From Paenibacillus sp. FSL R10-2782 (lineage in GTDB: Bacteria > Bacillota > Bacilli > Paenibacillales > Paenibacillaceae), in the NCBI RefSeq assembly GCF_038592985.1, contig NZ_CP151951.1, positions 5,496,501 to 5,560,500 on the forward strand: a stretch of DNA of 64,000 bases, written 5' to 3'. Shown piece after piece: positions 1 to 47,677 of this stretch (its first letter is position 1; every line of letters begins with the position of its first letter). Below the pieces are notes generated by a model, which saw nothing but the letters and a program-made list of their open reading frames with translations, was not told the DNA's origin and made no database searches. A program made the translations under genes and the position numbers.

Positions 1-526
1 CCGTATAAAGCATCTCATGCTCATCCGTTAACCTGCCCTGGATGTCCACCCATTCTTCAACGCCATGGATAAATGTGTTGCGTTTTAAATCGACCCCAAC
101 CAACAAGATGGTCGCCTTTCGATCGAGCAGCTTTCCCCAGGCGGAGCCTCTTGCGCATGGCGTATCATAACGATGATCGTCGTTGGTGAAAGCTATGGAA
201 TCCCGACCTAATGCTGCCACCGAATGGGTGGGGTGTAACGAACGTATCACGCCAGGCCTTTTGCGAAAAAGTTCAGGTAGGATACCGACGCAGCAAGCTG
301 ACTGATCCACGTAAAATCTGGGATTATCCGCATTGATGTAGGACCACGTATGGGTAGGTAACACCAGCAGCCCATCCTTCATGTACTCTGTAAACGCATC
401 CAAGACTGTGTCCGCACCACCCTCGACCGCCCCCATACTTTTCATCGAAGAATGGACCAACAATGTCCCTTTGCTGTCAATACCCATTTGCTCTAATTGC
501 TTCATTAAGCTCTCTATCGTGTGCAT
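1..526 (-). CDS. AAC(3)-family aminoglycoside N-acetyltransferase (3' end missing)
   Basis: The family transfers acetyl from acetyl-CoA to the 3-amino group of aminoglycosides in the cytoplasm. The 175 residues visible match the Antibiotic_NAT fold: HSSMKSMG near residue 25, LHPTHSVAALG at 97-107, TPCARGSAWGKLL at 122-134 and TFIHGVEEW at 151-159. Family members are about 265 residues, so roughly the last third lies beyond the left edge. The ATG at 526 follows GGAGGGAGAA at a good distance. The start is only 40 bp from the attachment-like core at 566-586, so the gene opens right at the rlmH-proximal end of its cassette and is read away from rlmH. Some family members are housekeeping (YokD-like) without strong resistance, so the substrate is uncertain. 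Confidence 0.85.
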   Translation of the reverse strand, partial: MHTIESLMKQLEQMGIDSKGTLLVHSSMKSMGAVEGGADTVLDAFTEYMKDGLLVLPTHTWSYINADNPRFYVDQSACCVGILPELFRKRPGVIRSLHPTHSVAALGRDSIAFTNDDHRYDTPCARGSAWGKLLDRKATILLVGVDLKRNTFIHGVEEWVDIQGRLTDEHEMLYT

Positions 527-565
527 GTTCTTCTCCCTCCCGGGTTATTATACCAAAACTTTCTA

Positions 566-586
566 TTATTTATGATACGACTCACC
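566..586 (-). repeat. rlmH-3'-end-like attachment core, copy 1 (leftmost)
   Basis: 18 of 21 bases match the rlmH end at 47657-47677. The right flank GCGCTGTCTG is shared with the copies at 31991 and 44707; the left flank is a weakened CAAAACTTTC arm. It separates the AAC(3) gene from the methyltransferase cassette. Confidence 0.8.
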
Positions 587-666
587 GCGCTGTCTGAAAA
601 GACAACGAAAAGACTGCTTGTCCAGAATCATAGCTATCTTCCCGATAGGGTACTCCTTTTTCTCAT

Positions 667-697
667 AAAAAAAGGAAGGCGTGGGGTGCACCTTCCC
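667..697 (-). terminator. Rho-independent terminator of the methyltransferase gene
   Basis: On the minus strand GGAAGG pairs with CCTTCC around an 11-base loop and is followed by seven T. It lies 59 bp after the stop codon at 756 and close inside the cassette end at 586. Confidence 0.75.
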
Positions 698-755
698 TTA
701 ACTCGTATAACTCAAAACTCAGGACCCACAGCTCAATTCTCGGCCACCTATGGAT

Positions 756-1466
756 TTAGCCTCCTGAATTCATCCGTTTTCTTAGCACCAAATGATACCT
801 GGAGTGGAAAACTCCTGTTAATATATTTTCATTACGAATCATCACAATCTCTTCAATAGCAAAGTCGCTGCCGATCAGGTCCAGAATTTTTGAGTAATTG
901 TAATACATTTGCACAGTTCCTTGTTCGTGCCCTGTACCGCAAATTTCTTCGCCAGTGAATTCCCTCGAATGGTTCGAATCATCTCCAGAGATTAAATCAC
1001 AATAAAATAACCCCTCTTTTTCTAACACTCTTGCAGTCTCTCGTATACCCTTTTTAGCAATTTCGAAGTTCATGCTATCGAATACACCGTTACTGCCCGC
1101 AAATTGAAAAAAACCATCGTTCCAAGGCATCTCAGTAATACTGCCTGCTACAATTTTACTCTCTATATGATCAATGCCAGCGCTTGAAGCCCATTCACGA
1201 GCTTTCATTACCGCTTCATCCGACAAGTCAATCCCGTAGGAATCCAAACCCATCTGCTTGCTGAAAATAATATGTCTGCCTATACCACAACCTACATCTA
1301 GGAATCTTGGTTGTGCTTGGTGAGTGTGGATGGTCTTGTAATCTTGGAGTCCCACTCGTTTTGTAATATATTTCGCAAAAAAACGTATCACTTCTTCATG
1401 GGGATAAAAAACGTGATTTTCACCGTTTTTATAAGAATTTTGCCATTCTTGTTTCTTGTTATCCAC
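756..1466 (-). CDS. Class I SAM-dependent methyltransferase
   Basis: Predicted cytoplasmic methyltransferase of 236 residues. The SAM-binding motif I is FLDVGCGIG at residues 55-63, followed by an acidic GID loop at about 78-80, typical of the Methyltransf_11/25 group; the substrate cannot be read from sequence. I place the start at the GTG at 1466 because GGAGGAGAT sits just upstream; a longer frame to 1511 has no such site. It is the cassette gene nearest the leftmost core and ends with its own terminator at 667-697. Small-molecule or antibiotic methylation would fit the neighbourhood but is only a guess. Confidence 0.8.
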   Translation of the reverse strand: MDNKKQEWQNSYKNGENHVFYPHEEVIRFFAKYITKRVGLQDYKTIHTHQAQPRFLDVGCGIGRHIIFSKQMGLDSYGIDLSDEAVMKAREWASSAGIDHIESKIVAGSITEMPWNDGFFQFAGSNGVFDSMNFEIAKKGIRETARVLEKEGLFYCDLISGDDSNHSREFTGEEICGTGHEQGTVQMYYNYSKILDLIGSDFAIEEIVMIRNENILTGVFHSRYHLVLRKRMNSGG

Positions 1467-1786
1467 TTTAAATCTCCTCCGCCCCGATATGTAAGGTGTT
1501 ATTTGGATCACAAAATGCTCGGTGAGCTATGAGTTCCTATTCCAAACAACTATCTAAATAGACTATCGGAAAAAAGAGCGATATTCATAATACTGATAAT
1601 TACTACTAACTCTTTCCACGTTCTATGGCTCCGTCCAGTTTGTTCTATATGAGTACTGGCTACTACGCCAACAGCAAACTCCATCGAATGAGCTGTATGA
1701 GCTCGCATGACTTTTCCGATTGAACCTTAACAAATTTACGGACTGTTAGGACGGCCTTGTTTCTTTAGTGAGCATGAGGCTCCACG
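1467..1786. other. Intergenic, 320 bp
   Basis: No convincing gene, repeat or attachment core seen. It should hold the promoter of the methyltransferase gene (minus strand) and the 3' end of the monooxygenase transcript; no clear terminator hairpin was found. Confidence 0.4.
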
Positions 1787-2107
1787 TTATACGCCCAATC
1801 CCTTGCCGCCCACCGGACGTAGTCGTATCGGCTCCACGCCCGCGATTAGAGGATTTGCACGCCGAATGACTGCCATCACTTGCTCGTTCTTGAGAGAGTC
1901 GGCATGAACTTGGGCATCGCGCCACAGCTCTGTGACCCAAACCGTGTCGGGATCGTCCACAGATTCATTGATAATATAGAGCTCACAGCCATCCATATCG
2001 TTCAGGCTCCGGGAAGCCTCCAGCAATAATGAAATGAGTTCCTCTCGCTTCCCAGGGTGAGCCGTCAACTTACCATACATAGTGAACTTGTCCATCTCTT
2101 TTTTCAT
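1787..2107 (-). CDS. Antibiotic-biosynthesis-monooxygenase (ABM/YgiN-like) domain protein
   Basis: A 106-residue single-domain protein with the ferredoxin-like ABM pattern: MYGKLTAHPGKREELISLL near residue 10, then WVTELWRDAQVHADSL near residue 57. The family includes quinone monooxygenases such as YgiN and haem-degrading IsdG-type enzymes; many members are just small-molecule binders. The start overlaps the stop of the upstream WYL regulator by the ATGA arrangement (2104-2107), so the pair is translationally coupled and the regulator probably controls this gene. No catalytic residue can be assigned. Confidence 0.75.
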   Translation of the reverse strand: MKKEMDKFTMYGKLTAHPGKREELISLLLEASRSLNDMDGCELYIINESVDDPDTVWVTELWRDAQVHADSLKNEQVMAVIRRANPLIAGVEPIRLRPVGGKGLGV

Positions 2108-3123
2108 CCTTTCCTATTATCTGTTTTAAATGGCATCGCTTCGTAGTGCTTCCACATTTCCAGGCTTACCTCCGCCATTCTTTCGATCAGCATGAGGGGC
2201 TCAAGTATTTCAAGAGACTTCCCGTATGGGAGAAGAAAGTAAGGCACGTATGTCTTCAAAGACGGTTCCCCGATCTTAAAGAGAGCTTCGTCGGGTCTCC
2301 TGCGCTCGCTTAACGCATGCCCGAATAGCCAATGCCTGCATAGCTCATTAAGCGCGTGTTCATGTCCCTTTAGCCTTACCGTGACCAGAGTCTCGGCGTC
2401 GAGCGAATCCGGGAGCAAAGAGCGCAAAAGAAAATCCCTTGCGGAGAAGGAGGATGGACGTTCGAAGCGTGTCCCCGCCGCTTCCAAATGGACTATTCGA
2501 TCCACGCGAAAGCTCCGGATCTCTTGCCGCAAACCGCAAAATCCGACAACGTACCAAATCCCTTTCCAATGCACGATGCCGTAGGGATTGAGGACTCGGT
2601 TGGTGCGGGCCAGCTCCGGTCCTTTGGCATAGACCATGTTCAGCGACTCTCCCCGCGCTGCGGCCTCCTCCAGATGCTTGAGCAGCTCAAGCTCGCGTAC
2701 GTCCGTGGGAGGGTGGATGACGGCCAGCCCGTCGCTGTGTCTGTTGATCCATTCGAGTTGCTCTTCATTGGTGTATCGCTTCAGCTTATCTATTGCTCGG
2801 ACGAGCGCATCCGTGAAGGGATAGCCTGCTTCCCGGGCGAAGACCGACGCATGCACTAGCGCCTTCTGCTCTTCGGAATCGAAGAGCAGCGGGGAATCGA
2901 CGAACTCGCCGAGCAGCCGGTAACCGCCGTTCGGACCGGAATCGGCTATAATCGGGGCACCGCTTGCACACAGTGAATCGATGCATCGGTAAACGGTACG
3001 GACATGAATCTCCAAATCATCCGCGAGCTGTTGAGCCGTCACCCGCTTCCCCGAACGAAGCAGCCATAGAATGGATAGCATATTATCCGCTTTGGACATG
3101 CCGCACTTCACTCCCTGAGCCAT
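2104..3123 (-). CDS. HTH/WYL-domain transcriptional regulator (YafY/DeoR-like)
   Basis: A 339-residue regulator with an N-terminal winged helix (RVTAQQLADDLEIHVRTVYR, about residues 27-46) and a WYL effector domain in the middle (IWYVVGFCGLRQEIRSFRVD). The WYL fold senses ligands or nucleic acid ends, and this architecture is common in accessory regions. A start at the Met at 3099 (MSKADNM) is an alternative, with GGGAG 11 bases upstream; the first Met at 3123 has a poor site. It lies upstream of and overlaps the ABM gene, so the two form an operon. Confidence 0.85.
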   Translation of the reverse strand: MAQGVKCGMSKADNMLSILWLLRSGKRVTAQQLADDLEIHVRTVYRCIDSLCASGAPIIADSGPNGGYRLLGEFVDSPLLFDSEEQKALVHASVFAREAGYPFTDALVRAIDKLKRYTNEEQLEWINRHSDGLAVIHPPTDVRELELLKHLEEAAARGESLNMVYAKGPELARTNRVLNPYGIVHWKGIWYVVGFCGLRQEIRSFRVDRIVHLEAAGTRFERPSSFSARDFLLRSLLPDSLDAETLVTVRLKGHEHALNELCRHWLFGHALSERRRPDEALFKIGEPSLKTYVPYFLLPYGKSLEILEPLMLIERMAEVSLEMWKHYEAMPFKTDNRKG

Positions 3124-3179
3124 TTTCTCGTTTTAAACTTTTACTCTACCGCCTTCAATACTTTCATTGTAAAGATTTT

Positions 3180-3677
3180 TTAGGCTAAAGGTGTTATCCC
3201 TTTTTCGATCCAGGTCTCGTAAGTAGGGCCGTAGATATTCGGCAATTGAAGGCCAGCCTGACGCATGAGAACGGTCATCTGTCCGCGATGATGCGATTGG
3301 TGCATGATCGAATAACGAAGAGAGCTTCCATTCAGCCAAGCTTCCTTGTTTATTACGACCGATTCGAACAAAGTTCCATCCTTCCACTGCGTACGAACCG
3401 CATGCAGCAGATCGTTGCTGATCCGCCGATACTCCGATGCTATTAATGCGGCAGAAACCGATGCCTCTTCTCCTCCAGAGAGAGCATCGAATACGAGCCC
3501 CAGGCTCGACATATAATGCAATGAATGTACCAAATGCCACGCGATTTGTCCAAGCGTACGCCGACCTTCGATAACCTCCTGTCCCAAAGAAGCATCCGTG
3601 AGCAAATCCAGCACCCTAGCGGTTAGTTCTGCCTCGTCAGTCCACTCTAACGCAAAATCTTCAATCCTAGTAAACAT
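3180..3677 (-). CDS. DinB-family protein (YfiT/DinB_2-like)
   Basis: A four-helix-bundle protein of 165 residues with the metal-binding histidine pattern of the DinB superfamily: HLVH near residue 47 and HQSHHRGQ near residue 125. Members act as metal-dependent thiol-S-transferases (bacillithiol/mycothiol) or are induced by DNA damage; the role here is unknown. GGGAGGAATGAAAA precedes the ATG at 3677. It ends 57 bp before the WYL regulator start, same strand, so it may head that operon. Confidence 0.8.
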   Translation of the reverse strand: MFTRIEDFALEWTDEAELTARVLDLLTDASLGQEVIEGRRTLGQIAWHLVHSLHYMSSLGLVFDALSGGEEASVSAALIASEYRRISNDLLHAVRTQWKDGTLFESVVINKEAWLNGSSLRYSIMHQSHHRGQMTVLMRQAGLQLPNIYGPTYETWIEKGITPLA

Positions 3678-3724
3678 TTTTCATTCCTCCCTTTCATTAT
3701 TGGCTTTAAGCAATACCAGCATAC

Positions 3725-3757
3725 AAAAAAAACACTGACAGTTACGGTCAGTGTTTT
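3725..3757 (-). terminator. Rho-independent terminator
   Basis: CACTGAC (3733-3739) pairs with GTCAGTG (3747-3753); on the minus strand the stem is followed by eight T. It ends transcription from the gene at 3887-4405. Confidence 0.8.
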
Positions 3758-3886
3758 CAATTTAGGCTTTCTCAAAAATGGTCGCTGGTCAACTTTAATT
3801 TCACGAGAAGCTGGAGACGCCCCCTTGATCCGCGCAGAATATGCGTCCGCACCTATCGTGAATAGCCCCCTTTGACAGATATACGA

Positions 3887-4405
3887 TTATTCGTTATCCG
3901 GGGCGGCCGGGGTCATCAAGCCTTGAATGGCGCCGAAGAACGGACGAATGGACTTGATCATGCCGTAGCCCATCTTCACGACCGGAACAAATTTCTGGAT
4001 CATGCCGAACAGCCGCAGGCCGCCACCGAGCGCACCGCCGAGCGCTCCTACGCCCGCACTGGCGCCGCCCAAGCCGCCGAGCAGCGAACCCATCATCGGT
4101 AGGAATGCCGACACCTTAGCGTCTGGCTTGCGGGAGCGCGAACGGACGGACGGTTTGCGCGCTCCGCTTCTCCGATTGCTGAGACGGACGCCCGGGGCAT
4201 GCGAACCAGCTCTGCGTTTGGGAGATCGGGAGCCTTGCTTCCCGGAAGAAGCGCGTGGGGGGGCTCCAGCACTGGCAAGTACCAACCCCCCGCAATTAAC
4301 GTCGGTGATGTAGCCGACGTAAGTCTCTCCGCTATGCAGGGTGACGCAGACCGGACGATCCTGAAGCTTCTTAGCCCGTGCGCGCATCTCATTCGATTGT
4401 GCCAT
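3887..4405 (-). CDS. Hypothetical protein: Sm-like N-terminus, basic linker, Gly/Ala-rich C-terminus
   Basis: Not recognised as a named family. The first 45 residues (RPVCVTLHSGETYVGYITDV) resemble an LSm/Hfq-type or spore-coat-associated beta strand pattern. Residues about 48-98 are a basic Ser/Arg/Lys linker. The rest is glycine- and alanine-rich with a hydrophobic stretch (LLGGLGGASAGVGALGGALG) ending FVPVVKMGYGMIKSIRPFFG. AGGTGA precedes the ATG at 4405. It has its own terminator at 3725-3757. The layout suggests a surface, spore or membrane-associated small protein; that is inference. Confidence 0.6.
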   Translation of the reverse strand: MAQSNEMRARAKKLQDRPVCVTLHSGETYVGYITDVNCGGLVLASAGAPPRASSGKQGSRSPKRRAGSHAPGVRLSNRRSGARKPSVRSRSRKPDAKVSAFLPMMGSLLGGLGGASAGVGALGGALGGGLRLFGMIQKFVPVVKMGYGMIKSIRPFFGAIQGLMTPAAPDNE

Positions 4406-4836
4406 GGAAGTTCACCTCGCTCACTGATTATAATTCAGTTTACGACAGGGGCGGACTGCCTGCTTGTGCGAATGGGGCATGCGCACGCCCAAAATCGCTT
4501 GATGGATGCTGTACTATTCCGTTCTTTTAAACTGACATCAAATTTCACTCTTCACTTAGTGTCGATACTTTACGTGAAAAGCAACAGAATATCATTATAA
4601 AGGCAAATAAATCGTTTGATATTCAAGGTAAAGTAACTTTAACTCATTATCGGACTATCCAATATACTTAGTTAATTAAATCAAAGCTTATCATAGGGCG
4701 AATTATGCAAGCTTAAAGGTTGCATTTTTTTTAGCGGATTCTGTAAGATCGGCTGGACGTTCAGTTCGGCTATGCACCTTCATGCCCTTATGCTATATTC
4801 GGTCTAACTTCAAAATCAGAAAGGGGCAACTCCATT
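4406..4836. other. Intergenic between divergent genes, 431 bp
   Basis: Holds the promoters of the divergent genes at 4405 (minus) and 4837 (plus). A TATGCTATA stretch at about 4790 is a possible -10 for the kinase gene. No repeat or attachment core seen. Confidence 0.4.
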
Positions 4837-6459
4837 ATGAATCAAAATATTAAACAAGCGATAGTCAGGGGAGAAACGTCGCTTGGCATCGAATTTGGAT
4901 CCACACGAATCAAGGCTGTACTGATTGACCGCAATTTTGAAACAATCGGTTCCAGCAGCTGTGAGTGGGAAAATCAATTGATCGACGGTTATTGGACCTA
5001 CCATCTCAATGAAATGATTAATGGGTTGCAAGAAACTTATCACCAATTAAAGCAAGAGGTTGAGAATAATTATGGCGTAACATTGCAAAAAATTGGATCA
5101 ATCGGATGTTCTGCCATGATGCAGGGCTATATTGCACTTGATCAAACAGGAGAGCTATTGGTTCCGTTCCGTACATGGCGCAATGCCACAACGGGTACAG
5201 CTGCATCTGAGCTAACCGAGAAATTCCAGTTTAAAATTCCTCAACGCTGGAGCATCGCACATTTGTATCAAGCGATTTTGAACGATGAAGAGCATGTCAC
5301 TAACATTGACTATATTACGACTTTGTCCGGTTACATTCATTGGCTGTTGACTGGCAGCAAGGCTCTTGGTATGGGGGATGCCTCTGGTATGTTCCCCATC
5401 GACGAATCTGCACAGCAATATAATGAAGATATGGTGAAGCAGTTTGCCGATTTAATTGCCAATAAAGAATACCCGTGGAATCTTAAAGATATTTTACCTA
5501 AAGTTTATTCTGCAGGTGAACATGCTGGATATCTAAGTGAAACTGGTGCCCGACTATTAGATCCATCGGGCAGCCTAAAAGCAGGTATTCCGCTATGTCC
5601 TCCAGAAGGCGATGCCGGAACAGGCATGGTCGCTACGAATAGTATCAAAAAACGTACCGGCAACATTTCCGTAGGTACGTCGATTTTTGCCATGGTTGTA
5701 CTAGAGAAAGATTTATCCACGGTGTACCCTGAGATTGACATCGTAACTACACCTGATGGCAGCCCTGTCGGCATGGTTCTTGCTAACAACTGCTCCAGCG
5801 ATATTAATGCATGGCTCGGCTTGTTCCGTGAATTTTATGAAGCAATGGGGCTGAAACCCGATATGAACCAGTTATTCAGCGTCCTGTTCAACAAAGCGCT
5901 GGAAGCAGACGCTGATGGCGGCGGCTTGCTGAGCTACGGCTACTATTCAGGCGAGAACATTACCGGGCTTGCAAAAGGTCGTCCGCTGTTCGTTCGTTCT
6001 CCAGAAAGCCGCTTCAATCTGGCTAACTTTATGAGAATACATCTGTTTACTGCGTTTGCTGCACTAAGGCTCGGGATGGATATTTTGACACAGAAGGAGC
6101 ATGTAACGATTGACCGTATTTTGGCGCATGGCGGATTGTTCAAAACGCCGCTAGTCGGTCAAAAAATGTGTGCCGCAGCACTGAATGTTCCTGTTTCGGT
6201 CATGTCTACGGCTGGTGAGGGTGGCGCATGGGGGATGGCAATTTTGGCATCCTACATGGCTAATAAGGAGCAGCACGAGTCCTTGGCTGATTACCTTACC
6301 ACTAAAGTGTTCAATGATGCAGAAGGACAAGAGGTCTATCCTGACAGCGCTGATGTGAATGGCTTTGCCTTGTTCATGGAGCGTTACACCGAAGGGCTGG
6401 CAATCGAGCAGGCAGCGGTAGATCATTTTGTGGAAAATTGGAAGAAAACAAAAGCATGA
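4837..6459 (+). CDS. FGGY-family carbohydrate kinase (xylulokinase-like)
   Basis: A 540-residue ATP-dependent sugar kinase of the FGGY family, which phosphorylates pentoses, hexoses or polyols in the cytoplasm. The N-terminal phosphate-1 motif is [16 protein letters not shown] (about residues 16-31); the C-terminal domain carries [15 protein letters not shown] and [17 protein letters not shown], the ATP-binding adenosine region. The sugar cannot be told from sequence, and the usual partners (epimerase, isomerase, transporter) are absent, so it stands alone. AAAGGGGCAACTCCATT precedes the ATG. A terminator follows at 6549. Confidence 0.85.
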
Positions 6460-6548
6460 AAATTAAAAATAATCGATGTCCACCCTATTGCAATAACAAG
6501 TAAGCAGCTAGTACATTACTCATATAAGGCATTTGAAAAGATAAACCG

Positions 6549-6582
6549 AAGGGCCATCCTTTTGTGGGATAGCCCTTTCTTT
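6549..6582 (+). terminator. Terminator hairpin at a cassette end (also present at 11414)
   Basis: AAGGGC-ATCC pairs with GGGAT-GCCCTT, followed by TTTCTTTG. It ends the kinase transcript. Almost the same hairpin stands next to the attachment core at 11371, so this is probably the left end of an old cassette whose core has decayed (a weak core-like TTACTCATATAAGG lies near 6514). Confidence 0.65.
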
Positions 6583-6647
6583 GATCTCGCATCTTTTTTG
6601 CAAATAGAAAAAGTGGATGGATTTCTCCAATTGCGCTTTCGCTTACT

Positions 6648-7109: not shown

Positions 7110-7202
7110 TTCCATCTCTCCTTTTATCTCATTATTTCCAAAAAAACTTGCCACTACTCAATAGTCTCAAATCTACTAACGGGATCATTTCTGCCTAAAA
7201 GT

Positions 7203-7805: not shown

Positions 7806-7883
7806 GATTACCTCTCCAATCTAAATTAATAAAATCCTGAATATAACAATATAGAATGATATGGTGGTTCATGTACACCTTTC

Positions 7884-9782: not shown

Positions 9783-9793
9783 TGTGCGTATTG

Positions 9794-36980: not shown

Positions 36981-37034
36981 GTTTGAACCTTCCTTCTGTT
37001 TTTTATGCTAACCGGTATGAAGCTGGTGTAAGCC

Positions 37035-37919: not shown

Positions 37920-37932
37920 GCTAGTTACCTCC

Positions 37933-39393: not shown

Positions 39394-39430
39394 TAAAAAG
39401 ACACTGAGATTCTATTCATCAGTGTCTTAT
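39394..39430 (-). terminator. Terminator of the ABC-F gene
   Basis: AAGACACTGA (39398-39407) pairs with TCAGTGTCTT (39419-39428) and five T follow on the minus strand. Confidence 0.8.
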
Positions 39431-39550
39431 TTATTGATACTTTTCCACCAACATCATGTTTCATCATTGAACTCGAACTAATTCACTTTAGCCCTATTCG
39501 CTGTAACTGACTTCACTTTCTTGTAATCATTTCAATCAGAGAGTTGTAAT

Positions 39551-41290
39551 TTAAAGCAACTTAATCAGCTCTTCTAGCTCATCAACCAATACTTTTGCAA
39601 GTTCAAAATCAGTATCTTTTAAAGCCAATTCTATTTTCATTTCAACTGATTTTTTCTTTTGTTCAGTTTCTAAATAGTCTCTATCAAAATGACTAGCATA
39701 AATCATCTGTCTAAATTTTCGCATACTCATTTTTCTAATCGTCTTATCGTCAATGATTAAAACATAATCCATACCATTTACAACAGAATAGAAATCATGA
39801 GAAATCATGAGAATCGCACCTTTATAGTCTTCAATCGCTTTCTCCAGTGCTATTTGTGTATAGGTGTCTAAATGGCTTGTCGGTTCATCAAGAAGCAATA
39901 CATTTGCTTTACTGGCAGAAACTTTAGCCAATTGAAGCATATTTCTTTCTCCACCAGATAAAGATTCTATCTTTTGATTAACGGTTTCTCCTTCAAAGCC
40001 ATAGTTTGAAATATACGATCTAATCTCATCATAAGTTTTAAACCCAGCATCGATGAATTCATCTAGTATTGTATTAGTATCCTTTAGCATTTCACCTTGA
40101 ATCTGAGATAAATAAGCCACTTTAACATCAGCATTTATTTCAATTGAATCATGATTATTTTTAAAGATTTCTCGGAGTAAAGTCGTTTTCCCGGTACCGT
40201 TTGAACCGATAATGGCTACTTTATCTGTAGATTTTATCTCAAAGTTAACATTGTCTAAAAGCAACTCATCAAAGGCAACACTATAATTATTGACATTTAC
40301 AACAATGGTGTCTTCAATTTCATTATCAATACCAAAACTAATATTCGGTTGCTTAATATCAACAAATGGCGCTTTAATTCTGCGCGCTTCCAATCTTTCT
40401 TGAAACTTAACTCTAGCTTTTAACGCTCTACCTCTAGATGCTTCTGCATTATAAGTTGCGATAGCTCTAAGATTATTGATTATGTTCTCGTTTCTCTCAA
40501 TTTCTTCATCTTCAGCGATTGTGAGTTCTTGTAACTCAATTTTAGTCTGAAGTAATGAGAAGTTATAATCAATATATCGCCCATCGAACTCTTGGATTTC
40601 CGTATTTTCAAGGTGTATAATTTTGTTGAAACAATGATTCAATAGATATCGGTTGTGCGTAACAACTAGCAGCATTCCCTTGTGGGAATTAATAAGATTT
40701 TTAAGTGCATTTAGGTTTTCAAAGTCTAAAAATACATCTGGTTCGTCCATAATCATTAAGTCTGGACTACTAAGCATTTCCTTCATCACTTGAATAAGTT
40801 TGAATTCCCCACCACTCAGGTCGGATACCCTAAGATCTTTTAGCTTCATGAGGTTTGCTAGATTTAGTTTCTTATTAATGTTGCTTTCAAAATCATCCCC
40901 ACCCATTGAATCAAATGCGTCTAAAGCTAATTGATACTTTTCTAGTAACGATTCAATATCCGATGATGTTTCCATTTCAGTACAAATAGATGTTATTTCA
41001 TTTTGTATCTTAATAAATTCTTCTCCTATATATTCAAAAACGGTTGTTTCTTTAGTTTTGTCTACTTGTGAGAACTGACTTACATACCCAATTCTGCAAG
41101 TTGGGTCTATCTCTAACTTGCCATCGAACAAATATCTTTCCGGATCCATCAGTATATCTATCAGTGTACTTTTCCCACTGCCACTTGTTCCTATAAAAGC
41201 GCAATGCTGTGCCTCTTCAAACGTAAATGAAATGTTTTTATATAGTTCTTTTTGCGGAAATGAGAAGGATAAATTATCAACTTTTATCAT
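39551..41290 (-). CDS. ABC-F family ATPase (Lsa/Vga-type ribosomal protection group)
   Basis: 579 residues, two ABC domains and no membrane segments. Walker A motifs: GTSGSGKST (34-42) and GSNGTGKTT in the second half; signatures LSGGEFKL and LSGGERNM; Walker B LMIMDEPDVFLD and VLLLDEPTSHLD. The inter-domain linker lies around residues 240-310 (RALKARVKFQERLEARRIK). ABC-F proteins act on ribosomes; the antibiotic-resistance branch protects against lincosamides, pleuromutilins, streptogramins or macrolides, but others are housekeeping. Very AT-rich. It stands next to a decayed AraC-GyrI gene. Resistance is a possibility only. Confidence 0.85.
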   Translation of the reverse strand: MIKVDNLSFSFPQKELYKNISFTFEEAQHCAFIGTSGSGKSTLIDILMDPERYLFDGKLEIDPTCRIGYVSQFSQVDKTKETTVFEYIGEEFIKIQNEITSICTEMETSSDIESLLEKYQLALDAFDSMGGDDFESNINKKLNLANLMKLKDLRVSDLSGGEFKLIQVMKEMLSSPDLMIMDEPDVFLDFENLNALKNLINSHKGMLLVVTHNRYLLNHCFNKIIHLENTEIQEFDGRYIDYNFSLLQTKIELQELTIAEDEEIERNENIINNLRAIATYNAEASRGRALKARVKFQERLEARRIKAPFVDIKQPNISFGIDNEIEDTIVVNVNNYSVAFDELLLDNVNFEIKSTDKVAIIGSNGTGKTTLLREIFKNNHDSIEINADVKVAYLSQIQGEMLKDTNTILDEFIDAGFKTYDEIRSYISNYGFEGETVNQKIESLSGGERNMLQLAKVSASKANVLLLDEPTSHLDTYTQIALEKAIEDYKGAILMISHDFYSVVNGMDYVLIIDDKTIRKMSMRKFRQMIYASHFDRDYLETEQKKKSVEMKIELALKDTDFELAKVLVDELEELIKLL

Positions 41291-41328
41291 GGTGTTACCT
41301 TTCTTTATAACTAAAATGGTGACTATTA

Positions 41329-41849
41329 TTAGAGGTATTGCAGAACATAGATTTTGAGTTTACCGTTGTTAGAGTAACACTGTTTACCACCAAGTTCAAT
41401 CCATTTGTAGCCCATCCCTTGGGGGTCAAAGTTCCATGCTACCTCCTCAACTGTCCTCATAAAAGTGCCGGAATGAACTCGACTTTGATCTCTCCCAGTT
41501 GTAAATGTACCTTATTCGTCTTATCTCGCTCCTTGATCAAATAATGATAAGGCGAGAATACCTCCTGACGAATAGCCAACGGAATAGGTCGGGGAGCTTT
41601 TTGGTAGGCTGCAGGGGTGAGCTGAAAAGCCTTGTTGAATGCTCGTGTAAACGTCTCTTGTGATGAGAATCCATACTTTACGGCAACATCCAGAACCCGC
41701 TGATCCGTGTCGCGGAGCTCGAAGGCGGCACGGCTGATCCTTCGAGTCCAGATGTAATCCCGCAATGTCATCCCGGTTAATCGATTGAACTGTCTGGAAC
41801 AATAATAGGGTGAATAGCCTATTCGTTCCATTTTATTCCATTCGTACAT
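41329..41849 (-). pseudogene. AraC-family regulator with GyrI-like domain, decayed
   Basis: AGGAGGGAAGACTTCC precedes an ATG at 41849. The protein begins MYEWNKMERIGYSPYYCSRQ, which joins the normal start directly to the helix-turn-helix, so about 20 residues are missing. The second HTH is kept (FSSQETFTRAFNKAFQLTPA). The first frame stops at 41457, but the GyrI-like C-terminus continues in another frame: FMRTVEEVAWNFDPQGMGYK, then YKWIELGGKQCY and a stop at 41329. So deletions and a frameshift broke the gene. Such regulators bind drugs or other hydrophobic ligands. Confidence 0.8.
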
Positions 41850-41932
41850 GGAAGTCTTCCCTCCTTTCCTTTTGATCATATCACCGGCGATTTTTGCATA
41901 CTTGATTCGAGTTGTACAATAAAAACTTGCCG

Positions 41933-41953
41933 TTACTTATGATACGGTTCACC
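41933..41953 (-). repeat. rlmH-3'-end-like attachment core, copy 9
   Basis: TTACTTATGATACGGTTCAC; 19 of 21 bases match the rlmH end. AAAAACTTGCCG on the left is the consensus arm; CATAACGGCG on the right is its inverted partner. Confidence 0.9.
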
Positions 41954-41969
41954 TTAGCGTTCATAACGG

Positions 41970-42015
41970 CGAAAAATCAAAAGGAGCTTGCCGCGGCAGC
42001 TCCTTTTGATTGCTA
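41970..42015 (-). terminator. Cassette-end terminator, downstream of marR-like gene
   Basis: AATCAAAAGGAGCT (41975-41988) pairs perfectly with AGCTCCTTTTGATT (41998-42011), 21 bp inside the core. It ends the MarR transcript 77 bp after its stop; T follows on the minus strand (TTTTTC). Confidence 0.8.
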
Positions 42016-42087
42016 TACTTATTGCACTATCGCTATATCCGATTTCTTAACCTTTGCTTTTTGCTCACACCGATCTCCCGGTGTTCC

Positions 42088-42552
42088 TTACGTCTCTTTA
42101 CAAGACGATGAAGATCTTGTTTTTGTTCTTTCCGCCAGCTTAGTAATCGACTCAATATCTTGATCGGTTAATTGATCCAAAAAATGCTTGCGTATGGCCT
42201 TTGAGACTATGGGAAGGGCTTCATCCAAGGCTGACTTTCCGCCGGGAGTAATAATAACTTCAACACCACGTTCTCTGTCCAATGGCTTTCTCAATACAAG
42301 TCCGCGTTTTTCCATCCGCGTTAGATGATGTGATAATCGGCTCTTATCCCAGTCCATCGAGTCGGCTAATTCCTGTTGGCGAAGCCTACCGTTCCCAAAT
42401 TGGACTAACCGATCTAATACTCCAAAATCGCCCTCTGATAGACCTGTGTGTTCGGACATGTCCTTTACAACACAACCGAAAATTCTCTTAAAGGAACCTT
42501 TCCACATATTCCATATTCCCATTTCCTCTACGTTTAGTTCGTTCTTATCCAT
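42088..42552 (-). CDS. MarR-family transcriptional regulator
   Basis: 154 residues with a winged helix (RLRQQELADSMDWDKSRLSH, then EKRGLVLRKPLDRERGVEVI). It is divergent from the SDR/AKR genes, and the space between holds two copies of GGTTGA-4-TCAACC, the first just upstream of its start. The Met at 42552 (MDKNELN) is preferred over the longer frame to 42588, which would run into the operator; no good ribosome site is visible for either. It probably represses itself and the SDR gene, and responds to a drug, phenolic or oxidant. Confidence 0.88.
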   Translation of the reverse strand: MDKNELNVEEMGIWNMWKGSFKRIFGCVVKDMSEHTGLSEGDFGVLDRLVQFGNGRLRQQELADSMDWDKSRLSHHLTRMEKRGLVLRKPLDRERGVEVIITPGGKSALDEALPIVSKAIRKHFLDQLTDQDIESITKLAERTKTRSSSSCKET

Positions 42553-42568
42553 AGGAACATAATAACAT

Positions 42569-42622
42569 GGTTGACGTATCAACTTCAAGATGTTACAGTG
42601 TTCGTAGGTTGATACGTCAACC
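42569..42622. promoter_or_regulatory. Two palindromic operator sites for the MarR protein
   Basis: GGTTGACGTATCAACt (42569-42584, last base off) and GGTTGATACGTCAACC (42607-42622, perfect). A third, looser pair of half sites (GTTGAC...TATCAACC) lies at 42636-42661. On the minus strand TTGACG of the second site, a 17-bp spacer and TGTAAC form a promoter for the MarR gene, so the operator overlaps it. Confidence 0.65.
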
Positions 42623-42717
42623 TAAAAGGATGACAGTTGACCCGGGGTTAATGTATCAACCAGAGGCTGTATTACAAAGATCGCAGTGGATAAAAGAATG
42701 AAAGGAGTGGTATTACT

Positions 42718-43470
42718 ATGCAGGATAAACCCGTCGCCTTGGTCACCGGGGCCAATAAAGGAATCGGTCTTCAAATCGCGAAGGATCTCGCGGTGCACGG
42801 CTTCACTGTGCTCGTCGGATCGCGCAATCTCGAGAAAGGGGAGACGGCCGTGAAGAGCGTCGGAGCGGATGCCCGCGCCCTCCAGCTCGACGTTACAAAT
42901 CAGGATTCCATCTCCGCCGCGGCAGAGCGCATCCGCAGCGAGCTCGGCCGTCTCGACGTGCTCGTGAACAATGCGGGCATATCGCACGCGGGTCAGCCGG
43001 GCAGGACTCTCGATGAGGTCGGGAAGTCGGGGCGCCCAAGCATCGCGTCTCTAGACGAGGTGCGCGCGGTGTTCGAGACGAACGTGTTCGGCGTCATCGC
43101 CGTCACGCAAGCGATGCTGCCGCTCCTTCGTGAAGCGTCAGCCGCACGTATCGTCAACGTATCGAGCGGCTCGGGCTCACTGACGTTAAACGCGGACCCG
43201 ACTAATTCGCATCGCGAGATGTTCGGCGCCGTTTACAGCCCTTCGAAGACGGCTCTCAACGCGATTACGCTCGCCTTCGCCATCGAACTCGAGTCGACAG
43301 GCATCAAGGTCAATGCGGTATGCCCGGGCTTCACCGCGACGGACCTCAACAACTTTGAAGGCACGGGCACCGTCGAGCAGGCTGCTCGTCATCCCGTACG
43401 CCTTGCAATGCTCGGCGAGGACGGTCCGACGGGAACATTCTCAAACGAGAGACGCCAGCTCCCTTGGTGA
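42718..43470 (+). CDS. Short-chain dehydrogenase/reductase
   Basis: 250 residues, classical SDR: TGANKGIG (NAD(P) binding, about residues 10-17), LVNNAGISH, catalytic Ser in VNVSSGSGSL and YSPSK with Tyr/Lys. The end DGPTGTFSNERRQLPW is the normal C-terminus of this group of carbonyl-reductase-like enzymes. AAAGGAGTGG precedes the ATG. GC-rich (clearly above the neighbours), which suggests a separate source. Likely regulated by the divergent MarR. Confidence 0.9.
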   Translation: MQDKPVALVTGANKGIGLQIAKDLAVHGFTVLVGSRNLEKGETAVKSVGADARALQLDVTNQDSISAAAERIRSELGRLDVLVNNAGISHAGQPGRTLDEVGKSGRPSIASLDEVRAVFETNVFGVIAVTQAMLPLLREASAARIVNVSSGSGSLTLNADPTNSHREMFGAVYSPSKTALNAITLAFAIELESTGIKVNAVCPGFTATDLNNFEGTGTVEQAARHPVRLAMLGEDGPTGTFSNERRQLPW

Positions 43471-43560
43471 TTTAATCTCGAGCACTGGCTCGCCAGAAAA
43501 TGCGTGAACAACCTGAAGGCGTGACCCTTCCCTATATACACTTAAGGAGTGTGTTATCAA

Positions 43561-44532
43561 ATGGAATATGTAAAACTTGGACGCAGCGGATTGGAAATTT
43601 CAAAGTTAAGCCTTGGAACCATGAGCTTCGGAGTACCTGAAAGTGGCAATACCCCGTGGTCGTTAAATGAAGAGCAAAGCAGACCGATCATTAATAAAGC
43701 ACTGGAATTGGGCATCAACTTTTTCAGTACCGCCAATATGTATTCCGATGGAACAAGCGAAGAAATTCTCGGACGTGCCTTAAAGGACTTCGCTCGTCGT
43801 GACGAAGTCGTCATTGCTACAAAGGTATTTGTTCCGATGCGTAAGGGTCCGAATGCGATGGGACTTTCCCGTAAAGCCATCATGACCGAAATTGATAACA
43901 GTCTAAAACGGCTTGGAACGGACTACATCGATTTGTACCAGATCCATCGTTGGGATCCACATACGCCAATTGAGGAGACAATGGAGGCTCTTCACGATTT
44001 AGTTAAGGCAGGCAAGGTCAGATACATCGGAGCATCCTCCATGCTGGCATGGCAGTTTGCGAAAGCTCAGCATGTCGCGAAGCGAAATGGCTGGACACGG
44101 TTCGTTTCCATGGAAAATAGACTTAATTTGCTCTATCGGGAAGAAGAAAGGGAAATGCTCCCCCTTTGCAAAGATGAGGGAGTTGGCGTCACTCCTTACC
44201 TGCCTTTGGCTGCAGGCCGGTTAACCCGGGATTGGAATGAGCAGACCTCGCGATCCGAGAATGACCAGGTAGCAAAGGCGTTGTTTTCAAGAACGGAAGA
44301 AGCTGATCGCAAAGTTGCGGCAAGAGTTGCGGAAGTTGCCGCTACCCGAGGCCTGCCACGCGCACAAATTGCACTTGCGTGGTTGTTGCAAAAAGAAGAG
44401 ATCACAGCACCGATTATCGGGTCGACCAAGATCAGCCATCTCGAAGATGCTGTTTCGGCATTGTCGGTTAAATTGACAGCTGAAGAAATCACGAGTTTAG
44501 AAGAACTTTATGTACCGCATCCACTAGTATAA
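43561..44532 (+). CDS. Aldo/keto reductase
   Basis: 323 residues, AKR barrel without membrane segments. Tyr of the active site in STANMYSDGTSEE, Lys in VIATKV, His in YQIHRWDPH; the C-terminal NADPH-binding part has APIIGSTKISHLEDA. The ATG at 43561 follows AAGGAG by 12 bases. It lies 90 bp after the SDR gene on the same strand, so both reductases likely share the MarR-controlled transcript and detoxify carbonyl compounds. Confidence 0.9.
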   Translation: MEYVKLGRSGLEISKLSLGTMSFGVPESGNTPWSLNEEQSRPIINKALELGINFFSTANMYSDGTSEEILGRALKDFARRDEVVIATKVFVPMRKGPNAMGLSRKAIMTEIDNSLKRLGTDYIDLYQIHRWDPHTPIEETMEALHDLVKAGKVRYIGASSMLAWQFAKAQHVAKRNGWTRFVSMENRLNLLYREEEREMLPLCKDEGVGVTPYLPLAAGRLTRDWNEQTSRSENDQVAKALFSRTEEADRKVAARVAEVAATRGLPRAQIALAWLLQKEEITAPIIGSTKISHLEDAVSALSVKLTAEEITSLEELYVPHPLV

Positions 44533-44593
44533 ACTGGGTAAAAATGCACAACTGCTCTTCGGGCGGACACGCGATAGTTCATTCAATACAAAC

Positions 44594-44640
44594 AGCGGCA
44601 GCTTCGGACTTTATTTTCTCGTCCATGGCTGCCGCTATTT
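44594..44640 (+). terminator. Terminator of the SDR/AKR operon
   Basis: AGCGGCAGC (44594-44602) pairs with GCTGCCGCT (44628-44636), followed by ATTTCTTC. Confidence 0.75.
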
Positions 44641-44706
44641 CTTCATTTCATCGGCGAAGGTTAGATTCCAAAAAAGATGCAGACGAACCTCTGATATCTT
44701 TCGCCG

Positions 44707-44727
44707 TCACTTATGGTACGGTTCTCC
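44707..44727 (-). repeat. rlmH-3'-end-like attachment core, copy 10
   Basis: 18 of 21 bases match the rlmH end; right arm GCGCTGTCTGTAACGGCAAG is the consensus; TTTCGCCG is the left arm. Confidence 0.9.
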
Positions 44728-44792
44728 GCGCTGTCTGTAACGGCAAGTTTTTGTCGAAGCTCCTTTCTGCACAGAGTATGGCCCAACATTTG

Positions 44793-45137
44793 TTACCGTA
44801 ACTGATGAGGTTCTTTAGCTGAAAATGTAGAAGGAATCTCTCCATCAGAGTAGTAGCGGATTGCCTTACCCGTTTTTCCAGCATACTCAATCTCATTTCT
44901 TGTGCTGTTGCCAATGTAGCCATTTACATCAATCACGAAGATTTCGTCAGAAATATCAATCTTTCTAAAATGGAGATCTCCCAGTAACTCCGCTTGTTCT
45001 TCTGTGATTTCAAAACTTTCAGTTTGTTCAAAGAAGGCTACACTAATCACTATGTTCCCTTGTAGTGTAAGAAATGCATTAGCTTGTCCAAATTGCTCCT
45101 TGAATTTTGTAGAACCGCATAAAGTAATTATTTTCAT
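44793..45137 (-). CDS. Small nucleoside-2-deoxyribosyltransferase/TIR-like fold protein
   Basis: 114 residues beginning MKIITLCGSTKFKEQF, a pattern seen in nucleoside 2-deoxyribosyltransferase-like and related nucleotide-binding Rossmann proteins; EIFVIDVNGYIGNSTRNEIE contains the conserved N/D and NST-x-x-E loop of that fold. Family members hydrolyse or transfer nucleoside bases; some serve in phage defence. The ATG at 45137 follows AGGAAGG. The assignment to the fold is fairly good; the substrate is unknown. Confidence 0.65.
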   Translation of the reverse strand: MKIITLCGSTKFKEQFGQANAFLTLQGNIVISVAFFEQTESFEITEEQAELLGDLHFRKIDISDEIFVIDVNGYIGNSTRNEIEYAGKTGKAIRYYSDGEIPSTFSAKEPHQLR

Positions 45138-45644
45138 AAGCATATCCTTCCTGAGCCGTTTTAAATGGTTTTTCAGGTTCTACACGAAACATAGTGCTTG
45201 AAACCAATGATTTGTTATGCTTTAATCCATAAAATATGGAAAAATATCTGTACATTCCGTAAGATGGTTGTACGAGCAATCCAACTTGAGGGAGTGACAG
45301 ATGCACAAACAGTATACCCGAAATCCGTTGTCATGGATTTAGCTCCCTATTACCATACCTGGTGGAGGAATGCAACCAACCACGTTATGCTCATTAACAT
45401 GTGTGGCTCAAAACCTCAAGAACTAACTTTGGTGTAGAGCCTATTAATTCATATTAAATTTTGTACATTCTCGCACTTTATCCTTCTTTTTCATGATTAA
45501 GCTCTTGACTGTTGTATATAACTCCTATAAACTCATGTCCAAATAGCAATTGAAATTATTATATATAATACTATTATAAGTTAATTTCAAACTGCTAGAG
45601 TTTAGTAAAGAAAGAAATTACATAGGAATAGGAGATCGAATAAA
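45138..45644. other. Intergenic, 507 bp
   Basis: It holds promoters of the divergent genes. A plus-strand stretch at about 45264-45437 (VVMDLAPYYHTWWRNATNHV) reads like a fragment of a protein end, without a start; no family recognised. Confidence 0.35.
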
Positions 45645-46607
45645 ATGAGACAACTATCTTTAGGAAAATCAGGACCGCAGGTGAGCGCTCTATGTCTTGG
45701 TTGTCTAAACTTCGGTACGAATACCGACAAAAGCTTATCGTATCGACTACTGGATCAATATGTGGAGGCAGGAGGTAACTTTCTGGATACTTCCAACAAC
45801 TATGCCTTTTGGAATGGAACCGGAGTAGGCGGACAAAGCGAGACCTTGCTGGGAGAATGGATGAAGGAACAAGGAAACCGGAATCGCATCTTTCTGGCAA
45901 CCAAAGTTGGAGCGAACCCAACCATTCCCGGTGGCGGCTTTTCTTCTAAAGAAGGGTTGTCCAAAAAGGCCATTCATAAAGCGGTTGATGAAAGCCTCAA
46001 GCGGCTGCAAACCGATTATATTGATTTGTATTACGCCCATATCGACGATATGGATGTCCCTCTGGAGGTAACGCTCGAGGCCTTCAATCAATTAGTACAA
46101 TCCGGCAAAGTAGGGGCCATCGGATGCAGTAACCATTACACCTGGCGGCTTGAAGAAGCAAGAAGTATTAGTCAATCCCACGGTTTTGCTTCCTATCAAT
46201 GTATTCAGCAGAGATATACCTATTTGCGCCCTAGACCAGGCGCCGACTTCGATGTACAGCTCAGCGTTTCGGAGGAAATGCTCAAATATATTGAGACCCA
46301 TGAGGAAATCGCTTTACTTGCCTATTCACCTCTGTTGAACGGTGCGTACAGCCGCCAGGATCGTCCAATTCCTGTGCAATACGCTGGCCTAGATGCTGAG
46401 ACAAGAATTTCCGTTTTACAAGAAATCTCCAAAGAAACGGGCGCAACGCATAATCAGGTAGTCCTCGCTTGGATGCTGAGTAACTCCCCGGTTATCCTGC
46501 CGTTAATTGCAGCAAGCTCAACGGAACAGCTTCAGGAGAACCTACAGGCACTCGATGTAACGCTTACTCAGGAGCAGATTAAAAGGTTAAATGAAGCAAC
46601 CTATTAA
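45645..46607 (+). CDS. Aldo/keto reductase
   Basis: 320 residues, second AKR of the array and only distantly like the one at 43561. Active-site Tyr lies in DTSNNYAFWNGTG, Lys in FLATKVGAN, His in DLYYAHIDD; the cofactor loop ILPLIAASSTEQLQENL is near the C-terminus. AGGAATAGGAGATCG precedes the ATG. Substrate unknown. Only cargo enzyme of the cassette next to rlmH apart from the 44793 gene. Confidence 0.9.
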   Translation: MRQLSLGKSGPQVSALCLGCLNFGTNTDKSLSYRLLDQYVEAGGNFLDTSNNYAFWNGTGVGGQSETLLGEWMKEQGNRNRIFLATKVGANPTIPGGGFSSKEGLSKKAIHKAVDESLKRLQTDYIDLYYAHIDDMDVPLEVTLEAFNQLVQSGKVGAIGCSNHYTWRLEEARSISQSHGFASYQCIQQRYTYLRPRPGADFDVQLSVSEEMLKYIETHEEIALLAYSPLLNGAYSRQDRPIPVQYAGLDAETRISVLQEISKETGATHNQVVLAWMLSNSPVILPLIAASSTEQLQENLQALDVTLTQEQIKRLNEATY

Positions 46608-46736
46608 AATATTAGCTGAATAAATTTGATTGTGAGGGTGTCCCCTATGAATAGGGAAAATGATCCGCTCCGTTCCCATTCTGGGATCAGCTAGTTCTCC
46701 TTTGCAGAAGTCCAATGGGATTAAGCCTCTTTTACG

Positions 46737-47498
46737 TATGGAACCTATTTGTTGACCGGAATGATGCGTTGCCCTGACTGCGGAGCCACGCTTGTCGCAC
46801 ATCGAATTCATGATACGCTCAAGGATGGAACCAAGGTTGTACGGCGATACTACATTTGCAGCAACTTCCGTGCTAAAGGTAGCCGCGTTTGTACTTCAAA
46901 CAGTGTGAAGGCTGACATGGCTGAGCAATATGTAACCGACCGAATTGCTGCCGTTGTGAGAAAGCCTAAGATATTGGAGGACATCGTGGCACGAATCAAT
47001 AATAACCGTACAGTGAATGTCGTCCCTCTCCAAAAAGAACTAGCTTCCGTTGACAAGGAGCTTGGAACGTTGGATGCCCAAAAGAAGAAATACTTCAAGC
47101 TCTACGAAGCCGATGTTGTTGATAATGAATTTCTAATCCAGCGTATGAATGAACTTAAGCAGCAGCATGAAGCACTGACAAGAAGAAGGCAAGAGGCCTT
47201 ACGACAGCTTGAACGAAGCTCCGCTGACCCGGTTCCGCTGCATCAAGTAAAGCAGGAACTGTCTCAATTCCATGAGTTGTTATCGTCAACACCGATTGAA
47301 ACACAAAAGAACCTGCTTCAGATCATCGTGAAGCAGATTCATGTGAAGAAAGGCCAGAAAATCGAAGGCATCGAATTGGAGTTCGATGATAAAGTCAATG
47401 CGTGTTTTTTAGGATATGCCCCTTCCACCCAAACGGTGGCAGGGGCTTTTGCTTTTCCCAAGCAAAAGTTCAACGCTCTGTACACTATCGTCATTTGA
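46737..47498 (+). pseudogene. Large serine recombinase, C-terminal part only
   Basis: About 254 codons from YGTYLLTGMMRCPDCGATLV to the end. The zinc ribbon (CPDC near the start, then CSNFRAKGSRVC) and the coiled coil (ELASVDKELGTLDAQKKKYF onward) of large serine recombinases are complete, but the frame is closed by TAA just upstream and the catalytic resolvase domain and recombinase domain are gone. It lies 160 bp from the rlmH attachment core. Of the three relics it is the longest; it may be the remnant of the integrase that built the array. CcrA/B/C relationship cannot be judged by eye. Confidence 0.85.
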
Positions 47499-47656
47499 TG
47501 CCAAATAGGAATAAGTCATGGACAGCTCCATGCCCTCAAATCACAGCACATTGCCTTTGTAGCAGGCTTTTTCACAGAAAGTGACTTAGGGTAAACCCTT
47601 GCCATGCTAATCTTTTTCCACGCCTTTTAAGCAGTTCCCCAACAAAAAACATGCCG

Positions 47657-47677
47657 TTATTTATGGTACGGTTCACC
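47657..47677 (-). repeat. Chromosomal attachment site at the end of rlmH (core copy 11)
   Basis: The core codes for GEPYHK-stop. CATGCCG just downstream (47651) is the arm of the first cassette. In the rlmH reading direction, GAACCGTACCATAAATAA differs little from the SCC attachment site GAAGCATATCATAAATGA of Staphylococcus. Confidence 0.85.

Follow-up and report, generated by a model that had tools for sequence, protein, structure and literature searches.

Tandem cassettes behind rlmH in Paenibacillus sp. FSL R10-2782 and their probable relation to staphylococcal cassette chromosome elements

We examined the rlmH gene of Paenibacillus sp. FSL R10-2782 and the sequence behind it in a stretch of 64,000 nucleotides of its chromosome (contig NZ_CP151951.1, positions 5,496,501 to 5,560,500), hereafter the window. 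Ccr-family large serine recombinases move the staphylococcal cassette chromosome (SCC) elements, the methicillin-resistance cassettes of staphylococci, and an earlier note on this DNA had proposed that a tandem array of SCC-like cassettes lies behind rlmH. The gene occupies 47657-48136 on the minus strand (Pfam SPOUT_MTase, 6.7e-58), and its terminal 21 bases, 47657-47677, form the core that anchors the array. Read in the sense of rlmH, the core ends in the codons for E-P-Y-H-K-stop. A core scan of both strands of the window recovered ten further copies with 16 to 19 matching bases, all on the minus strand. From rlmH outward they lie at 44707-44727 (18/21, with a full right-end arm), 41933-41953 (19/21), 31991-32011 (19/21, right-end arm), 31685-31705 (18/21, right-end arm), 29205-29225 (16/21, left-end arm), 16230-16250 (17/21, with a strong hairpin at the right end of the cassette), 11640-11660 (17/21), 11371-11391 (18/21, right-end arm and hairpin), 9693-9713 (16/21, again with a strong hairpin at the cassette right end) and 566-586 (18/21, right-end arm). 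All ten positions of the earlier note, with their common orientation and degree of matching, were confirmed; the chance expectation for sites of at least 16 of 21 bases, from 40 order-2 Markov simulations, is a mean of 0.175 per window over both strands.

The strict E-P-Y-H-K-stop pattern occurs seven times in the window, always on the minus strand and with the copy of rlmH itself counted. The whole 5.6-Mb genome also has seven matches, all on one strand, so none lies outside the window at that stringency. In the following, G000 denotes the source genome, other G numbers are comparison genomes, and G063 is the sole genome of the same species that was compared. The array extends at least 5.4 kb to the left of the window, up to a weaker core at G000:C1:5491061-5491081. 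The core-to-core intervals measure, again from rlmH outward, 2929, 2753, 9921, 285, 2459, 12954, 4569, 248, 1657 and 9106 bp. The small cassettes of 0.3-3 kb described in the earlier note are therefore right for the six of ten intervals below 3 kb and not for the four larger ones.

The cassette arrangement extends to much of the genus. We surveyed 75 Paenibacillus genomes, all of which contain rlmH, reading up to 20 kb of downstream sequence in the 74 genomes other than the source and more in 17 genomes, the source genome among them. With each genome's own core as the query at 16/21, there were 84 sense, 4 antisense and 3 reversed matches, spread over 44 of the 75 genomes. A weight matrix applied at a score of 13 to 1.85 Mb gave 145 sense matches, 2 antisense and 1 reversed; the matrix was trained on the sites it counts, and the strand controls are the independent part of this result. 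An internal copy of the core was found downstream of rlmH in 55 of 75 genomes, and at least two copies in 33; the single internal core of G038, whose rlmH end differs, is left out of the 55. The 144 cassettes bounded by cores have a median length of 3.8 kb, with 57 shorter than 3 kb and 22 shorter than 1.5 kb. Between one and three open reading frames (ORFs) of at least 100 residues are present in 75 of them and none in 6. Similar arrays occur in the wider family. G425 has 17 strict cores, including that of rlmH, over 105 kb on one strand of its rlmH contig, and one more on another contig. G382 has 16 strict cores on one strand, eight of them within 62 kb at rlmH, with clusters of four and three elsewhere and one single copy. 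Three strict cores of G007 likewise lie away from rlmH, on the other strand (G007:C1:4955118-5102151), and these outlying cores of G382 and G007, the single copy included, are possibly secondary sites. Among 398 genomes drawn evenly from the class, at least three strict matches on one strand were seen in 14 of the 37 that belong to the family of the source, and several other Bacilli had 3-7 strict matches; the reversed-pattern control gave at most 2 per strand among the matches listed.

The conserved unit exceeds the 21-bp core: the whole att-like site is longer and dyad-symmetric, with the core in its middle. In the sense of rlmH, the best right ends read ..CTTGCCGTTACAGACAGCGC-[ GGTGAACCGTAYCATAARTAA ], where the bracketed part is the core, and the best left ends consist of the core followed by CGGCAAGTTTTT. 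The arms are inverted repeats, with variants in other genomes that include TTTCGCC..GTTAA and GGCGAA. A typical junction is composed of a right end (..CTTGCCG or TTTCGCC, about 13 bases, then the core) and a left end (the core, then GGCAAG or GGCGAA). When complementarity was computed over 138 junctions, a single peak of 0.376 (z 4.2) was centred between core bases 4 and 5, at position 4.5; the mean over the 80 centres tried was 0.257, and the runner-up reached a z of 1.5.

A scan of GTDB genomes with a 19-bp right end returned at least 120 stretches. The 80 matches listed come from Paenibacillus, Cohnella, Gordonibacillus, one Brevibacillus, one Bacillus sp. and Paenibacillaceae bacteria, and a core stood next to the right end in 58 of the 81 matches read. 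Over these 81 matches, agreement with the consensus was 0.96-1.00 at core bases 1-5, of which bases 1 and 2 were fixed by the search pattern, and 0.70-0.94 at bases 6-21. Among the 23 with a poor core, agreement was 0.87-0.96 at bases 3-5 and 0.13-0.78 at bases 6-21. The opening AAT of the core is present at rlmH in 22 of the 75 Paenibacillus genomes, yet among 22 internal cores in these genomes it occurs just once, a contrast that is expected if the first bases of the core remain with rlmH. From these alignments we predict that the crossover falls on the GA at core bases 4 and 5, within the glutamate codon, in which case each insertion would rebuild the last codons of rlmH. In G063, G006 and G038, the final two residues of RlmH are RL or RF rather than HK and the adjoining left end belongs to a different type (GGGTAAAATA), as though the terminus of rlmH had been altered by the element that inserted there.

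The right ends of the cassettes tend to form hairpins. Folding z values were below -3 in 37 of 136 right ends versus 4 of 136 random stretches (mononucleotide shuffles; Mann-Whitney 2e-5), and the left ends of the genus cassettes showed no hairpin excess by folding energy. In the window, 4 of the 10 internal sites fall in the lowest 5% of random stretches, such that the hairpins are a tendency and not a rule. Their form resembles that of terminators, which might insulate the cassettes from one another. A second copy of the right-end region at 11.4-11.6 kb is found within 6550-7158 of the window (149 bp at 98%, hairpin 31/31); it has a left arm with no core behind and is likely a decayed junction.

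Recombinase sequences lie in the window as fragments. The largest is the C-terminal part of a CcrB-like large serine recombinase at 46749-47498 on the plus strand, which points at rlmH (Pfam Zn_ribbon_recom, 1.8e-12; NCBIfam SCCmet_CcrB, 117.8 bits over positions 295-497 of 542). A second, shorter relic at 32508-32669, also on the plus strand, is 63% identical to residues 22-75 of this fragment (3.2e-17), and a third with one stop, at 13554-13760 on the same strand, is 41% identical to residues 84-154 (1.6e-10). Besides the fragment beside rlmH, the source genome has three other serine recombinases, at 28-30%. Neither a Cch-type helicase nor a tyrosine integrase was among the 40 window proteins scanned with Pfam, a subset of the window ORFs that includes three beyond rlmH.

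The earlier note had suggested looking for full-length large serine recombinases in related strains. Complete or nearly complete Ccr-like genes were detected at rlmH in six of the 75 genomes (G006, G008, G016, G056, G063 and G065), which is 6 of the 144 cassettes, and in each case the gene was in the first cassette and pointed at rlmH. These genomes have 1, 3, 2, 4, 8 and 3 cassettes, and the probability of all six being first by chance is 1 in 576. Any Ccr-like sequence at all was seen in 12 of 144 cassettes. The G008 gene is the weakest of the six, with 89% query coverage and one stop in a C-terminal match. When six recombinases from five of these genomes were tested, the best NCBIfam family was SCCmet_CcrB for five and SCCmet_CcrC for one, and Pfam found Resolvase, Recombinase and Zn_ribbon domains in all. 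Throughout the genus, every match of at least 40% over about 480-550 residues lay no farther than 8 kb from rlmH, and away from the rlmH region serine recombinases reached at most 35%. G016 carries a tandem pair of recombinase genes, as does G382, and beside the pair in G016 is a Cch-type protein with DUF927 (1.5e-36) and a Cch helix-turn-helix (4.7e-19). The G016 recombinase is identical to a protein of Paenibacillus sp. OK003, and homologues of it at 81 and 85% identity carry the name Paenibacillus polymyxa. Against plasmid and phage records at 1e-40, this recombinase matched 8 plasmid and 93 phage records, all below 60% identity; three staphylococcal plasmid records stood at 47% over 386 residues. 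The recombinase ORF crosses the core into the antisense strand of rlmH in G063 (L065:17841-19916) and G006 (L082:46-2154), and insertion may thus alter the C-terminus of the recombinase. The earlier note had offered a homologous or a convergent system as alternatives. Judged from profile scores and identity, kinship with SCC appears better supported than convergence, given the best NCBIfam scores and the one relative whose recombinase pair adjoins a Cch-type protein.

Comparison between genomes placed some of the changes at the cores. The rlmH-distal part of the source array is 95-99% identical to that of G063 and in the same order, with gaps; the rlmH-proximal part differs except for the start of the third interval. 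The cassette to the left of the core at 41933-41953 begins with sequence identical in G061 and G063, and the match to these two starts 3 bases ahead of the core. Gene order between the cores, whose general conservation the earlier note would have counted against cassettes, is therefore not shared throughout even within the species, and a shared ancestral order is rejected on this pair and on further pairs of genomes. Among 2707 ends of homology blocks, 54 lie within 10 bp of a core versus 8.8 expected from core density. Content between cores varies among genomes, and empty sites at the core, for which the earlier note had proposed to compare strains, were found in eight genome pairs. For example, a stretch of 13,046 bp with six cores in G021 is missing from G020, and 3,914 bp of G001 are missing from G051. 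The sequence behind rlmH in G042 equals that beyond the first cassette of G073, over the 45 bases compared. Inside cassettes, 58 stretches of at least 1 kb are shared between genomes at 90% or more; seven of these exceed the rlmH identity of the pair by 7-15 points, and for six of the seven the position within the array differs between the two genomes. Single cassettes thus appear to pass between species.

Pieces of rlmH itself also occur inside arrays. The stretch at 17986-18122 of the window matches 48064-48200 at 133 of 137 bases; it comprises the first 24 codons of rlmH together with the preceding sequence and may be the remnant of an earlier second rlmH. It adjoins a DDE transposase gene (18465-19289) with inverted repeats at 18136-18156 and 19367-19387. 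Extra rlmH 3' ends stand directly before internal cores at G054:C1:5866129-5866332 (68 codons, 94%) and G042:C1:3341951-3342040 (30 codons, 90%).

The blocks between the cores carry mixed cargo. The first cassette (44728-47656) holds the recombinase fragment and an aldo/keto reductase, and the second (41954-44706) a MarR-type regulator, a short-chain dehydrogenase and another aldo/keto reductase. The gene block of the second cassette is inverted relative to the cores in G014 (cassette 1) and G073 (cassette 3), at 82-89% identity. The third interval, of 9.9 kb (32012-41932), has an AraC-type regulator and an ABC-F protein on its rlmH side, followed by sugar transporter genes, two phosphatases and a TetR-type regulator. 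Carriage by plasmids was considered and rejected: the ABC-F end of this interval (39400-41960) has one distant match among plasmid records, and the plasmid matches of the G016 recombinase are the distant ones given above. A block of 285 bp (31706-31990) separates two cores. Cassette 5 (29226-31684) encodes an EF-G-like protein near the tetracycline ribosomal protection family. The sixth interval, of 13 kb (16251-29204), contains a sigma factor, a surface-type protein of 2046 residues, a sortase, the transposase and rlmH 5' fragment mentioned above, and an esterase-like protein. The surface-type protein (20422-26562) contains three stretches of DUF7601 and, towards its end, about twenty tandem repeats of 21 bp; the sortase gene follows it. 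Cassette 7 (11661-16229) carries an acetyltransferase, a LysR-type regulator and an alpha/beta hydrolase, and a block of 248 bp (11392-11639) again lies between two cores. Cassette 9 (9714-11370) holds a berberine-bridge-type oxidoreductase that is 99% identical in G063 and 93-98% identical in other species. The tenth interval, of 9.1 kb (587-9692), encodes a SUKH-type protein, methyltransferases, an FGGY kinase, a DinB protein, a WYL regulator and an ABM protein. The window contains no tRNA, which rejects a tRNA-type island.

For a wider view of the cargo, proteins were taken mostly as the largest ORF of a cassette. Of the 144 cassettes, 115 candidates could be referenced, and 103 were used after omission of 12 that were near-duplicates or very long. 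The commonest Pfam families were ResIII with six, the AraC-type helix-turn-helix with five and AAA_21 with five, followed at four each by aldo/keto reductase, beta-lactamase fold, MFS, ABC and others, and some cargo proteins match defence models. The largest ORFs of the genus cassettes lie in both orientations, with 91 sense and 47 antisense. Overall, the cassettes store accessory genes of a general kind, some of which are defence-like or drug-related. The resistance-gene store of the earlier note is only partly right and not supported in that form, because the cargo is mixed and the two resistance-like window proteins tested fall under their NCBIfam cut-offs, at 413.8 bits against 775 (tet_protect) for the EF-G-like protein of cassette 5 and 303 bits against 380 for the ABC-F protein.

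We consider it probable that at least ten blocks behind rlmH were built up by serial site-specific insertion through Ccr-family large serine recombinases. Tandem cassettes at rlmH, as the earlier note had them, and a relation to SCC are supported by the cores, the empty sites and the Ccr-like genes of relatives. The sequences show the sites and their symmetry, the empty sites, the exchange of cassettes between species and, in relatives, the Ccr-like genes beside rlmH; the acting enzyme, its action in trans, the crossover base pair and insertion next to rlmH in order of time are what we infer from them. Cassettes without a recombinase, which are the majority, would be moved in trans by an element that bears one. 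Where relatives have the gene complete or nearly so, in six genomes, this element is the first cassette after rlmH. In the source genome it has likely decayed to the CcrB-like fragment, and the array is therefore predicted to be dormant there unless a helper enters. A strict age order of the cassettes is only partly supported: the recombinases in first place and the comparison of G000 with G063 speak for it, and G043 and G044 against it.

Several observations weigh against serial insertion at rlmH. No internal cores were counted in 20 of the 75 genomes, some of them on short stretches, and some relatives bear core clusters away from rlmH. A good core was not behind the right end in 23 of 81 matches. 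Most block ends (2653 of 2707) are away from any core, and 51 of the 58 shared stretches are not 5 points above the rlmH identity. The difference between G043 and G044 falls mid-array, which means that insertion or loss is not limited to the side next to rlmH. The rlmH fragments within arrays hint that homologous exchange also takes part. A complete Ccr-like gene was not found in the source genome, the window holding CcrB-like fragments only. The recombinases tested scored 287-431 bits, all under the NCBIfam cut-off of 900, and are hence kin to Ccr rather than members of the curated families.

The array could instead be an eroded composite island, in which a few large tandem SCC-like elements left small blocks through internal deletion and these blocks were never mobile alone. 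We regard this as unlikely. Composite and pseudo-SCC islands are already known, and erosion would fit the recombinase fragments of the window, the Ccr-like fragments in other cassettes, the intervals of 248 and 285 bp and the lack of any 100-residue ORF in 6 of 144 cassettes. However, whole Ccr-free cassettes of 1.9-4.5 kb are common to species in which they have different neighbours (G014 cassette 1 and G073 cassette 3; G032 cassette 2, G048 cassette 2 and G065 cassette 3), and they are 94-97% identical where rlmH is 81-82% identical in those compared.

It is more improbable still that homologous recombination after DNA uptake reshuffled the array, with the cores and shared ends acting merely as short homology. 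Such recombination could account for the pieces of rlmH in arrays (the first 24 codons in the source genome, the last 68 in G054 and the last 30 in G042), and G063, whose rlmH is 95% identical to that of the source, shares much of the distal array at 96-99%. Against it stand breaks situated right at the core, with unrelated flanks beyond, and dyad-symmetric sites and Ccr-like genes that occur at the same place. That the core is a dispersed or chance repeat unrelated to insertion at rlmH has almost no probability left: clusters elsewhere in some relatives, such as the four and three copies in G382, speak for it, but it is refuted for the source genome by the simulated null, the strand controls, the seven of seven strict genome matches in the window and the empty sites at the core. 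The spread of the core over the chromosome that the earlier note had named as fatal to cassettes is thus not seen here, strict copies being confined to the window, and some relatives have clusters away from rlmH.

The array in Paenibacillus resembles SCC and composite SCC of Staphylococcus and Macrococcus, which sit at orfX/rlmH, in its use of the last codons of rlmH as the site, in direct repeats with inverted arms and in its tandem composites, and Ccr-like recombinases and, in one case, a Cch-type protein are present in relatives. As with SCC, insertion is at the 3' end of rlmH, the core being the end of the gene and relatives having empty sites there; the site is also repeated directly, and the ends carry inverted repeats. 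A complete ccr gene within the element is not found in the window, where there are only fragments. The Paenibacillus units differ from SCC in being many more and smaller (median 3.8 kb, n=144), with Ccr-like sequence in only 12 of 144 cassettes and proteins under the Ccr cut-offs.

The Enterococcus cassette chromosome (ECC), described in Enterococcus (PMC6222049), likewise uses the rlmH 3' region, ccrAB-type large serine recombinases and variable cargo. According to the accessible text of that paper, ECC elements are 21-78 kb long with fewer than five att hits per genome; the window, by contrast, has ten internal cores, and one relative has as many as 16 in addition to that of rlmH. The accessible text of PMC10061031 (2023) states that such islands with a PolA-SSB primase occur in many Bacillota, mostly downstream of rlmH and with large serine recombinases, and that the island of Paenibacillus pinistramenti resembles a tandem composite with several repeats of the rlmH end. 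The belief of the earlier note that no description existed in this genus was consequently mistaken. In that portion the paper concerns islands with primase and helicase, not small Ccr-free cassettes, their exchange, a genus-wide count or the crossover, and no other Paenibacillus description of rlmH cassettes was found in the open-access library searched, judged on titles and abstract openings. What is new here is how large the arrays and how small their units are, how seldom a cassette contains a recombinase, the exchange cassette by cassette and the predicted GA crossover. The rlmH cassette site, familiar chiefly from methicillin-resistant Staphylococcus aureus, is then a busy site of gene exchange in a genus of soil bacteria, with cassettes more numerous and smaller than in the descriptions accessible to us. 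Two points about SCC thereby become testable: whether one recombinase can move many recombinase-free cassettes in trans, and whether larger islands are put together from a stock of such small cassettes. In addition, the crossover base pair is predicted from the genus-wide att alignment.

Integrons, as generally known, are alike in outline: small cassettes form an array next to a single anchoring site, and hairpins occur at part of the ends. They differ in that the recombinases here are serine and not tyrosine enzymes, the sites are dyads around the core, the cargo lies in both orientations and no common promoter has been shown. Tentatively, and with the balance slightly against it, the array may be viewed as the equivalent of an integron, with serine recombinases in place of tyrosine enzymes. 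Small cassettes that lack recombinases and often end in hairpins would be stored in order of age at the last codons of rlmH; visiting Ccr-type elements would capture and release them in trans, and they would be traded cassette by cassette between species.

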